Below are positions 1,033 through 4,367 of a stretch of 33,225 nucleotides of DNA, in pieces. How positions within the stretch are numbered: the stretch's first letter is position 1; the number at the start of each line of letters is the position of its first letter. This stretch comes from Candidatus Aquidulcis sp. (GTDB taxonomy: Bacteria > Chloroflexota > Limnocylindria > Limnocylindrales > Limnocylindraceae). The position numbers and the translations under genes were made by a program. The DNA lies in the NCBI GenBank assembly GCA_003670455.1, contig QWRK01000005.1, positions 1-33,225 of the forward strand. Direction: 5' to 3'. The notes under the pieces were generated by a model. It did not search any database. It was not told the DNA's origin and worked only from the letters and a program-made list of their open reading frames with translations.

Positions 1033-1650
1033 ATGCAAACAGAGCGAACTCTCTTGACGTCGCGTCACGCCGTGCGGGCCGTGGTCGTGGCAGGCGCCCT
1101 GGTGATTGGGGCGACTGTTGGTCGAACCAGCGCCGCGTTTACCGCTACGGCGCCAGTCACTGGCGGGGCAACCTCTGGAGTCGTCTCGTTGAGTACGGGC
1201 GGTGTGCAGCAGCTCACCTTCGGTGGCGCAACACTCACCAACATTGGTCCGGGCGCAACGTTTACCCAAACCATCACGGTGCTCAACGAATCAACGGTAA
1301 CCACACCATCAGACCTGACCGAGATTGCGCTGTGGAGTGATCTCACTGGAACGTCGACCGCCTCCTCTGGACTTGGCGCCGCGCTGCAGGTAACGATCAC
1401 GCGCAGCATTGGCGGTGGGGGCGCGGAGACGCTTTATTCCGGTGCACTGAACGGGCTATCGGCCTTTGGCTCGTTCGCAGCGCCGATCGGCGCAGCATGG
1501 AGTTCACAGAATGGAGGAGCGGTGACGGGCGCAACGGCGAAGAGCGCGGCCTACACGTTCACCTTCACGCTGCCAGCAAGTGCCACTACAGGCGCTGACT
1601 CTTCGGTCGCTGCGACCTTCACCTTTGAGGCGCGCAACAAGACGCAATGA
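1033..1650 (+). CDS. Secreted protein with SipW-type signal peptide (TasA/camelysin-like)
   Basis: Protein of 205 aa with a well-placed AGGAG (1023-1027) five bases before the ATG. Residues about 14-34 form a hydrophobic signal (AVVVAGALVIGATVG) followed by RTSAAFTATAPVTGG. The AAF-T pattern with a Gly/Ser-rich follow-on is typical of SipW-processed proteins such as TasA and CalY, rather than of ordinary Sec signals. The mature part is low in charge, rich in Thr/Ser/Gly/Ala and has no Cys. It carries an LxxIGPGATFTQTITVLNES segment like the PG-T-T-V-N strand of TasA-family domains. That suggests a beta-sandwich exported to the surface, possibly a fibre or matrix subunit. The stop overlaps the next gene, a signal peptidase, by ATGA, which supports a dedicated pair. 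Fibre formation is inference only. Confidence 0.75.
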   Translation: MQTERTLLTSRHAVRAVVVAGALVIGATVGRTSAAFTATAPVTGGATSGVVSLSTGGVQQLTFGGATLTNIGPGATFTQTITVLNESTVTTPSDLTEIALWSDLTGTSTASSGLGAALQVTITRSIGGGGAETLYSGALNGLSAFGSFAAPIGAAWSSQNGGAVTGATAKSAAYTFTFTLPASATTGADSSVAATFTFEARNKTQ

Positions 1651-2492
1651 GTCGGGCTGGCTGGGGCGCCGCCGCGCTCACACTTCTCCTTGCAACGCAG
1701 CTTGCCGGACTGCGGATGCTCGTTGTATCAGGGAACTCAATGTCGCCAAGCATTCGCGACGGCGACCTGGTCTTCACAGCGCGAGTGTGGCGAGGCGGTG
1801 AGGTGGGCGATGTGGTGTTGGTGGAGCGACCGAGTGATGGCCAGTTGCTTCTACACCGCGTCATCGAGCAGGGTGCGGGGTGGCGTCGAACACAGGGTGA
1901 CGCCAGCCTCAGCCCCGACGCCGAGCGCATCTCCGACGCGGCGGTGTTGGGCGGGCTTGCCGCAGTGATCCCCACCAGCCTCCTCGCCTCGCTTCCGCTC
2001 GACCTTGTTGCGGCACAGTTCAGTGCCGGGAGGAGCGTCAACGTGGGCATCACCTCCGCGCTAGGGGCGCGTGCGGAGATGAGCGGCCCAACGTTGGTGG
2101 GTGCCGATGTGCGCGGCCAGCTCCTTCCGGGAGGGCGGGCAACGTGGACGCTCATGCTCACGCCGTGCCTAACGGGGGTGGCGGGCGAGTGTGCTGGCGC
2201 CACCAATACGCTGCGTGTTGATCCGGACCGATTCGCGCCGATCGCGACGAGTGCCATCGCCCGATCACTCCGACTTACCAGCACCTGTCGCCCAGTTGGC
2301 AGCACAGCCTGGACCGCTTCCGCTGACCTCTTCACCGCCGCATGGAGTGCGGCGAATCTTGCAACGGGGCGACTCGCGTCACTCTCTGCGGGCGCCGCCG
2401 CGAGCGAGTGCCAGATCCAAGTAACCCTCCTCGGGAGTATCACTGCCGCCAATGCGACCATCTCACTCCCGCTGCGCTGGGGGCCAGAGTGA
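1647..2492 (+). CDS. S26B (SipW/ER-type) signal peptidase with long C-terminal domain
   Basis: Predicted membrane signal peptidase of 281 aa. One N-terminal membrane segment (about residues 6-26) leads into SGNSMSPSIRDGDLVF, which carries the catalytic Ser (S31) in GxSMxP. The second catalytic position is His (LLLHRVIE, about H69) rather than Lys, as in the archaeal/ER/SipW branch (MEROPS S26B). A GD box follows (QGDASLSPDAE, about 91-101). SipW-type enzymes usually end soon after this with a second hydrophobic segment. Here about 150 further residues follow, containing four Cys and a strand LLPGGRATWTLMLTP that resembles the PG-T-T motif of the upstream substrate-like protein. The tail is therefore probably an extracytoplasmic beta-rich domain. 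The gene overlaps both neighbours by 4 nt, so the three are likely co-translated. Confidence 0.85.
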   Translation: MSRAGWGAAALTLLLATQLAGLRMLVVSGNSMSPSIRDGDLVFTARVWRGGEVGDVVLVERPSDGQLLLHRVIEQGAGWRRTQGDASLSPDAERISDAAVLGGLAAVIPTSLLASLPLDLVAAQFSAGRSVNVGITSALGARAEMSGPTLVGADVRGQLLPGGRATWTLMLTPCLTGVAGECAGATNTLRVDPDRFAPIATSAIARSLRLTSTCRPVGSTAWTASADLFTAAWSAANLATGRLASLSAGAAASECQIQVTLLGSITAANATISLPLRWGPE

Positions 2493-3256
2493 GTCGGCAC
2501 CGTTCGTGGCTGCGAGTTGCTGTGCCACTCGCGCTCATCGCCCTAGCAACCTCGGGTGCCGCCTGGTCGCCTCGGCTCGACCTCTCAGTCACCTCTGGCA
2601 CGTGGAGCGCCCCGGGCGGCATCAACAGTGGGCTCCGCCTCTGGTACGACGCCGCAGAGGCGGGAACCATGGCGCTCTCGCCACGCCTTCGCTACTGGTT
2701 CGACAAGTCGGGCCAGGCACAACATGCGCCCGTAAGTGCAGGACCATTTCAACCCTACCCAACGGTGACAGCGGGAGTGACCGGCCTGCAGTTCAGCGGT
2801 GCGGCGGTGCAGCTGCCAACTAGCATTCCCCTGGAGCCGATGACGGTGATGATCGTCTTTCGCCAAAGCAACGATGGGCTCAGCCATCCGCTCATGGGGA
2901 GTCGGACGCGCTTCTCTGGCATCACGATGGAGTTTGGTCGACTGCGTGTGTATAGCAATGGCCAGGTAGTTGGTGCCACTACCGCTCGCACTGCCACCGG
3001 GCTGACCATCACCACCGTGCGCACCGCCGCAGGAGCGGCCGACGGCTTTCAGTACAACGGAGGAGCGGAAACGTCGTTCAACATCACCACGACGGAGAGC
3101 ATGAACTGGATCGGCGGGATGTTCGTTGCTGGGACAGCGAAGTATTTTGTCGGCACCATCATGGAGGTGGTGATTTGGGGAAGGTCGCTCTCACCGAGTG
3201 AGCTGCAGGCGGCACACCGCGCGCTTGGTGCGAAGTGGGGGATTAGCGTCCCTTGA
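2489..3256 (+). CDS. Secreted LamG-like (concanavalin A-type) domain protein
   Basis: The ORF track starts at 2342, inside the peptidase gene. The GTG at 2489, overlapping the upstream TGA as GTGA, gives a proper secreted protein of 255 aa. Residues 1-25 are a basic-then-hydrophobic signal (WLRVAVPLALIALATSGAAWSP), again with the AAW/AAF-type end seen in SipW substrates. The body reads like a LamG/laminin-G3 jelly roll: LRLWYDAAEAGTM, YWFDKSGQAQHA, VTGLQFSGAAVQLP, a central MTVMIVFRQ strand and the closing LSPSELQAAHRALGAKWG. Such domains bind glycans or act as adhesion modules; the ligand here is unknown. No Cys and no sortase or membrane anchor is seen. The last 14 bases overlap the 3' end of the opposite-strand gene. 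Confidence 0.75.
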   Translation: MSRHRSWLRVAVPLALIALATSGAAWSPRLDLSVTSGTWSAPGGINSGLRLWYDAAEAGTMALSPRLRYWFDKSGQAQHAPVSAGPFQPYPTVTAGVTGLQFSGAAVQLPTSIPLEPMTVMIVFRQSNDGLSHPLMGSRTRFSGITMEFGRLRVYSNGQVVGATTARTATGLTITTVRTAAGAADGFQYNGGAETSFNITTTESMNWIGGMFVAGTAKYFVGTIMEVVIWGRSLSPSELQAAHRALGAKWGISVP

Positions 3257-4367
3257 GGATTCGGCGCGGGAGTAGGAGGGCGATCTTCCCGATTAACCCG
3301 ATACCAGCGGCGCCAGCGAGCGCGTAGGGAACAGCAATCGTTAGTAGGTACTGTGGCCACTTGGTTGGCCAGAAGAACAGCGCAACAGCGCCCAGCCCAA
3401 GCCAGATTGCATAGACCGGTCGCTTGCGGGCAAGTGGGACGAGGCCAATCAGCGCGAGCGGCAGCATCCAGAAATCGAACTTCACGAGGAAGATGTTCTG
3501 GTCGTCGTGCCACGGCACGGACTGCAGGAGCCAGATCAGCTGCTGCCACATTGGAAATCCGGTGGATTGCACCTGCTCGCTTGTGGCGTAGTCGGGGTGG
3601 TAGGCGGCACTGGCGATCAGCCGACCGATCGGGTCGCTCCAGAGGTACGGATTCACCGCAAAGAAGGCGAGCGCAGCGATAGCGCTCCAGCCAAGCGCAT
3701 CCTTGAGCCTGAGTGTCTCGCCGCGTCGCGTGCGACGGAGGCGATCGACGACGATCGCGAGACCGGCGATGGCGTACGGATACTTTGCGCCGACAGCGAG
3801 GCCAATGCCAATTGCCGAGGCCACGTAGGCGAGCCGCCGGCGACGTGCGCTGGAGATACCGCGTGCGAACTCGTAGAGCGCCACGCCCAGCAGTGAGAAG
3901 AGGAGCGGCACCGATTCGAGCATCACTTGGCTGGTGTACTTGATGACCCAGGTGCTCGTCGCAAGAAGGATCCCCGCAACCGGGCTGACCACCGCCAAGG
4001 CGGTGACGGCGAGTACGCCGAACGCTACCTCCATGCGGCGTACCGCAGCGAGCGTCGGCCGATGCATCAGCTCGTAGGGGTTGGCCGTAACGGGGAGCTC
4101 TGGAATGCGCTGAATCGGCTCCATGCCGAGCATCACTGAGGCGATCAGGATCTTCACAAACTGTGGATGCTCAATGCGGTAGTTGTCCTCAAGCAAGATC
4201 GCAGGGTTTCCGGTGCGAATCTCGTCGGCCAAGATCTGGCCAGCGCGCATGTAGTCATCCTCATCGAAGTCGATTGGGAGTCGCGCCGCCTGCTGGTGCA
4301 GGAGCAGCGAGAGGGCGGTGATCAGTCCGACGGCGCCGAGCCTAAGGGCTTGGGATGAGCGGGTCAT
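3243..4367 (-). CDS. Multi-pass membrane protein, GT39/ArnT-like glycosyltransferase
   Basis: Predicted integral membrane protein of 374 aa with about 8-9 hydrophobic segments. After the first helix comes an acidic loop, LPIDFDEDDYMRAGQ. It matches the D-E motif in the first extracytoplasmic loop of PMT/ArnT-type (GT39/GT83) transferases, which use polyprenyl-phosphate sugars. A later YHPDYATSEQ loop and short C-terminal basic tail fit the fold. The length is at the short end for the superfamily. Acceptor and sugar cannot be read from sequence. It is the last gene of the pentose phosphate operon (4-nt overlap with pgl) and converges on the LamG gene. It could glycosylate surface proteins such as those encoded next door, but that link is speculation. 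Confidence 0.6.
   Translation of the reverse strand: MTRSSQALRLGAVGLITALSLLLHQQAARLPIDFDEDDYMRAGQILADEIRTGNPAILLEDNYRIEHPQFVKILIASVMLGMEPIQRIPELPVTANPYELMHRPTLAAVRRMEVAFGVLAVTALAVVSPVAGILLATSTWVIKYTSQVMLESVPLLFSLLGVALYEFARGISSARRRRLAYVASAIGIGLAVGAKYPYAIAGLAIVVDRLRRTRRGETLRLKDALGWSAIAALAFFAVNPYLWSDPIGRLIASAAYHPDYATSEQVQSTGFPMWQQLIWLLQSVPWHDDQNIFLVKFDFWMLPLALIGLVPLARKRPVYAIWLGLGAVALFFWPTKWPQYLLTIAVPYALAGAAGIGLIGKIALLLPRRILKGR

Follow-up and report, generated by a model that had tools for sequence, protein, structure and literature searches.

A probable dedicated SipW/TasA-type unit in Candidatus Aquidulcis with a signal peptidase fused to a genus-specific domain

Three overlapping genes in a Candidatus Aquidulcis MAG (Chloroflexota, Limnocylindria) very probably constitute a dedicated SipW/TasA-type unit, encoding in order a diverged TasA/camelysin, a signal peptidase of the S26B type and a LamG-type surface protein. 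The peptidase has no second transmembrane helix and continues instead into a beta-domain that is restricted to the genus. Our best explanation, to which we give a probability of about 0.6, sees the trio as a unit dedicated to secretion and assembly, in which this fused domain would act as a fibre starter or anchor. Sequence and conservation are the basis for the gene layout, the catalytic residues, the signal ends, the homology of product 1 to camelysins and the loss of the second helix.

Gene layout and signal ends

The trio lies in the window, by which we mean the whole stretch of 33,225 nucleotides that was analysed, taken from an assembly (G000) of 872,547 bases that is about 67% complete. 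Its genes and the main features of products 1 and 3 are these:

1033–1650, plus strand: gene 1 (ATG at 1033, 205 aa), TasA/camelysin-like SipW-type substrate and proposed fibre subunit, based on homology to sister-family PF12389 proteins and the Foldseek top match, TasA 5of2
1033–1134, plus strand: predicted signal peptide of product 1 (aa 1–34), putative cleavage A34/A35 with Phe36 at P2', based on the TSAAFT motif (12/12) and the hydrophobic stretch at aa 12–30
1135–1182, plus strand: proposed donor strand of product 1 (aa 35–50), mostly of low confidence in the monomer model, by analogy to the TasA N-terminus (PMC10151520)
1647–2492, plus strand: gene 2 (ATG at 1647, 281 aa), S26B signal peptidase fused to a C-terminal beta-domain
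2489–3256, plus strand: gene 3 (GTG at 2489, 255 aa), LamG-type surface protein with a SipW-type signal end
2558–2569, plus strand: signal end of product 3 (A24-A25-W26-S27), aromatic residue at P2', A24 and W26 invariant in 13/13
3041–3205, plus strand: stretch of product 3 (aa 185–239) matching Laminin_G_3 (PF13385, E 8e-6, 26.5 bits against a cut-off of 27.6)

The initial annotation had described three genes overlapping by 4 nt each, and this is correct to the base, the shared letters being ATGA for genes 1 and 2 and GTGA for genes 2 and 3. Values of dN/dS are low (0.05–0.10 for product 1, 0.07–0.16 for product 3 and 0.08–0.53 for product 2), indicating that all three genes are real and under purifying selection. 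No Rfam match falls within the window, and no sigma-70-like promoter was found upstream of the trio.

On the minus strand, positions 3243–4367 of the window encode a 374-aa multi-spanning protein whose gene is convergent with gene 3, the two sharing 14 nt. This protein has no Pfam match, appears GT-C glycosyltransferase-like by eye, and is present in inner-clade congeners and absent from deeper ones. A GT87 protein is found downstream of the trio in some sister-family loci (L112:5858–6862, PF09594). Glycosylation of the trio's surface proteins is possible.

The SipW-type signal ends that had been proposed for products 1 and 3 are present, with key residues invariant in congeners. TSAAFT (aa 32–37 of product 1) follows a hydrophobic stretch and is unchanged in 12/12 congener gene-1 products; judged by this motif, cleavage would occur at TSA/AFT, placing Phe at P2'. 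SGAAWS (aa 22–27 of product 3) is likewise preceded by a hydrophobic stretch, and both proteins carry an A-x-aromatic motif directly past that stretch, with an invariant Phe36 in the former and an invariant Trp26 in the latter. TIGR04088, which describes the SipW-cognate signal peptide, was absent among the matches of both products at E up to 10. E. coli LepB works inefficiently when P2' is aromatic, and TasA is cleaved by SipW (PMC10269814), so the predicted P2' residues would argue against ordinary LepB processing of products 1 and 3.

The TasA-like subunit and the LamG-type protein

Sequence searches with product 1 against Pfam, NCBIfam and PDB gave no match; when the PDB was queried directly with the sequence of each of the three products, or with profiles built from products 1 and 3, it yielded nothing either. 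PF12389 likewise had no match in the window's own genome, so product 1 lies below the curated cut-off, and among its 12 orthologues only a single match was obtained (E 0.23). The homology to camelysins was reached solely via the sister family, to which a weak match first pointed. The sister-family protein used as query passes PF12389 (39.4 bits against a cut-off of 22.5), and an order-wide search with it recovered relatives in 37 of 126 genomes as well as an Aquidulcis product 1 at E 2e-4. Profile–profile comparison of product 1 with the sister family (hhalign) gave E 6e-12 and a probability of 97.5%. The AF2 model of product 1 (pLDDT 72.9, pTM 0.71) has TasA (5of2) as its top Foldseek match in the PDB, with probability 1.00 and TM 0.43–0.45 at a modest E-value of 4e-3. 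From the profile comparison and this best structural match we conclude that product 1 is a diverged TasA/camelysin. Since PF12389 matches above cut-off in 30 of 400 Chloroflexota genomes, camelysins of this phylum are already known to profile libraries.

TasA fibres assemble via N-terminal donor strands, with F29 and P62 within a conserved interface (PMC9674648, PMC10151520). The F and PG positions of this subunit interface are retained in product 1, where 37 residues separate the Phe from the PG; the corresponding distance is mostly 32–39 in sister-family camelysins. The proposed donor strand falls in a part of the model with pLDDT below 50 at aa 41–48 and averages of 43–53 across aa 31–50. 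Product 1 probably makes a fibre, as the characterised relatives considered here, TasA and BsaA, polymerise. The opposing view is that products 1 and 3 stay monomeric on the cell surface or in association with an S-layer, the S26B enzyme doing no more than process them. It accords with a planktonic, streamlined host and with the small number of camelysin-family members known to make fibres; set against the polymerising relatives and the retained interface positions, we regard it as rather unlikely.

In product 3, the PF13385 match is confined to the C-terminal third and lies just under the cut-off; 11 of 13 orthologues show it again with E below 0.01. Judging by this fold class, the protein may bind carbohydrate, and the trio's products may take part in adhesion. 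A phage origin of the LamG protein was also considered, and no match was found in phage records. In the comparison with family and structure databases that the initial annotation suggested, TasA emerged as the top PDB match of product 1 and peptidase folds were matched by product 2; the cut-offs of PF12389 and TIGR02228 were missed and LamG stayed at 26.5 of 27.6 bits.

The peptidase and its fused domain

Product 2 is more than twice as long as its peptidase domain, a point overlooked in the initial annotation. Its features are:

1647–1982, plus strand: peptidase domain (aa 1–112) with a single N-terminal transmembrane helix (aa 4–20); TIGR02228 34.7 bits; Foldseek SipA, SpsB, LepB
1737–1739, plus strand: Ser31, nucleophile, invariant in 31/31 genus and sister-family peptidases
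1854–1856, plus strand: His70, general base (S26B type), invariant in 31/31
2013–2024, plus strand: AQFS (aa 123–126), junction motif resembling a SipW cleavage site and standing where the second transmembrane helix would be; Phe125 invariant
2025–2489, plus strand: C-terminal beta-domain (aa 127–281), genus-restricted, with invariant Cys214 and Cys255

The reading of the middle gene as a Ser-His S26B signal peptidase is upheld, as G84-D85 is invariant together with Ser31 and His70 in all 31 peptidases of the genus and sister family, and these residues and D91 align with those of 19 sister-family enzymes. Product 2 itself remains below the profile cut-offs, reaching 34.7 of 51.85 bits with TIGR02228 and 14 of 190 bits with NF046067; a sister-family peptidase passes TIGR02228 with 79.9 bits. 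In Foldseek the peptidase domain matches SipA and SpsB with probability 1.00, and also LepB. Its best structural match is SipA of Streptococcus pyogenes (PDB 4n31), a signal-peptidase homologue devoted to pilus polymerisation; unlike SipA, the Aquidulcis enzyme keeps an intact Ser-His dyad and carries an additional domain.

With its catalytic core complete, product 2 could in principle be the general signal peptidase of the cell. This idea is contradicted by a separate LepB at G000:C1:78301–78786 and has a negligible probability: LepB scores above the TIGR02227 cut-off in 17 of 19 Aquidulcis genomes, including this one and the two that have no trio. Given the separate LepB, product 2 is a second signal peptidase and probably a dedicated one.

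A second transmembrane helix is present in 19/19 sister-family peptidases and missing from all Aquidulcis enzymes. Over 19 residues the sister helix has a hydropathy of 1.9–2.8, against at best 0.4–1.8 before the Aquidulcis junction, where the segment is partly peptidase core. The junction itself bears A-x-F-[STA] in 12/12 Aquidulcis peptidases (one with Thr for Ala), with Phe invariant and about 155–160 residues beyond; motifs of the A-x-F type arise elsewhere by chance at about 0.7% of positions. With a single N-terminal helix, the C-terminal half of the protein should lie outside the membrane.

The model of product 2 shows this half as a beta-domain whose order of strands and helices resembles that of product 1. 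Its invariant Phe is followed 36 residues later by an invariant Pro-Gly, a spacing pattern that was chosen after seeing the sequence and occurs in 0.8% of shuffled sequences (0.1% if anchored near the start). In hhalign, under several settings, the domain showed no significant similarity to camelysins (P 0.16 to product 1, 0.4–0.8 to others), and it was not filed as a camelysin; the closest structures to it are weak matches of mixed kinds. No copy was found outside the genus among 400 Chloroflexota genomes, and when the whole of product 2 was searched against the order, matches outside the genus stopped by about residue 148, none covering the fused domain.

Because its sequence homology to camelysins is not significant, a role for the domain as a membrane-tethered fibre starter or anchor is one that we infer and hold tentatively, at rather less than even odds. 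A somewhat more doubtful extension is that the Aquidulcis peptidase swapped its second helix for an extracellular domain of camelysin/TapA-like character; freeing the subunits and nucleating or anchoring the fibre would then fall to one protein, which might also cut itself at the junction. A comparably doubtful alternative sees an ordinary, diverged SipW/camelysin unit, with the domain simply replacing the lost helix structurally, for stability or substrate presentation, and having no part in a fibre. The lack of significant homology to camelysins fits such a case, as does evolution faster than that of products 1 and 3 (dN/dS 0.15–0.53), but the junction Phe, the PG and the Cys pair are invariant, the domain is kept genus-wide, and its strand order and spacing are camelysin-like.

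The junction motif also permits a peptidase–substrate fusion, in which the domain would be a third SipW-type substrate that lost its own signal helix and is freed when the enzyme cuts itself after A123 (A/QFS). The placement of the motif exactly at the junction, with an invariant Phe in 12/12, speaks for this, and a merger is made plausible by two sister-family loci (L110 and L112) with two further SipW-type genes past the peptidase. We nevertheless find it unlikely, as no real transmembrane helix precedes the site, which may thus be unable to reach the active site in the manner of a normal substrate, and the motif has the background frequency given above. A fibre starter or anchor remains our preferred role for the domain within the dedicated unit.

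Conservation, comparison and meaning

The whole trio is found on one contig, in synteny, in 12 of 19 Aquidulcis genomes (the window's own included), and no relative was found in which the three genes are separated, in line with what the initial annotation had expected of related genomes. One further trio is split by a contig break, one genome has the end of gene 3 alone at a contig edge, in another the contig ends before the site, and two without a match cannot be judged. In the remaining two (G110 and G124) the trio is missing as a block and its flanks are joined, giving pgl-tdk-lysA in place of the pgl-trio-tdk-lysA of G116. All three genus genomes of at least 90% completeness possess the trio, and its site is constant, adjoining pgl-opcA-zwf-gnd and usually near pstB. 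This block-wise absence, together with low dN/dS, speaks for one functional unit, and the two congeners without it show that it is not essential.

Two assembly matters were noted in passing. In G111, two contigs, L063 (G111:C8) and L043 (G111:C57), each bear the end of gene 3 next to pgl, which probably reflects strain variants or an overlap that assembly left unresolved. Contig CAMAXG010000004.1 (L001, 44225 bases), titled Thermoflexus hugenholtzii JAD2, has the gene content of G125:C4 from a 1.1 Mb Aquidulcis genome, and the public MAG behind it looks mislabelled.

The same arrangement extends to the sister family (loci L096–L115, the reported start being internal for L096 and L105), where 17 of the 19 loci with a peptidase have a camelysin, then the S26B peptidase, then a protein whose signal end is of SipW type; the third protein is absent in two. 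These trios share with Aquidulcis the gene order and strand, a homologous first gene, SipW-type ends on genes 1 and 3, and similar short gaps or overlaps. They differ in that the peptidase ends in a normal second transmembrane helix and the third protein is not LamG; many third-slot proteins look Fn3-like by eye, Pfam gives one weak Ig-like match, and that of L112 passes TIGR04088. L110 and L112 have two consecutive SipW-type genes downstream of the peptidase, and the Aquidulcis form could have arisen when a gene of this kind merged with that of the peptidase.

As the layout recurs in the sister family, it is not special to Aquidulcis and the unit is of a known kind; a camelysin/S26B/SipW-type surface protein unit is conserved across this family of the same order and apparently undescribed. 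The recurrence speaks against the earlier suggestion that the LamG protein stands in for a TapA-like partner: the sister family fills the third slot with other surface-type proteins, so this position looks like an exchangeable surface module and not a TapA substitute. If anything in the trio is TapA-like, it is the fused domain. The earlier claim of a self-contained SipW/TasA-type unit holds, with product 1 a TasA relative, a Ser-His S26B enzyme, a separate LepB and the trio kept together in relatives.

In our preferred reading, products 1 and 3 would exit through Sec, and product 2 would trim both of them, since its S26B peptidase, unlike LepB, is suited to an aromatic P2' residue. Once mature, product 1 would form a TasA/camelysin-like jelly-roll and build a fibre by donor-strand exchange, each subunit inserting its freed N-terminus (AFTATAP...) into the next. 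Product 3 would add a further, exchangeable surface module with a fold of the carbohydrate-binding (LamG-like) kind. The fused domain, held outside the membrane by the peptidase's single helix, may start or anchor the fibre through its own AxF[ST] segment; a TapA-like role would put nucleation at the very enzyme that releases the subunits.

Bacillus subtilis tapA-sipW-tasA likewise has an S26B peptidase beside SipW-type substrates, the TasA-like fold of product 1 and Phe at P2'. Compared with that operon, Aquidulcis has no TapA sequence homologue and adds a LamG-type protein, its peptidase lacks the second helix and bears an additional extracellular domain, and its order is substrate-peptidase-substrate. 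In the sipW-bsaABC operon of Clostridium perfringens, too, a matrix protein that polymerises depends on SipW for its secretion, and other secreted proteins are encoded alongside it; the passages compared here describe separate genes with sipW first and two-component regulators in the operon, and report no peptidase fusion (PMC7395162). Bacillus and Clostridium (PMC7395162) thus already provide the outline of such a trio. What is new in Aquidulcis is a peptidase that lost its second helix and has a fused domain specific to the genus, together with the LamG partner. Among open-licence papers, none was found on such a system in Chloroflexota.

SipW/TasA systems have been studied mainly in Bacillaceae, and here one is conserved in a streamlined planktonic freshwater genus of Chloroflexota. 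Aquidulcis and its sister family, with their exchangeable third proteins, offer a natural comparative set for the evolution of a fibre and its accessory protein. The peptidase fusion, if true, would directly link signal-peptide removal to fibre initiation, and it bears on how fibres remain attached in bacteria without TapA.
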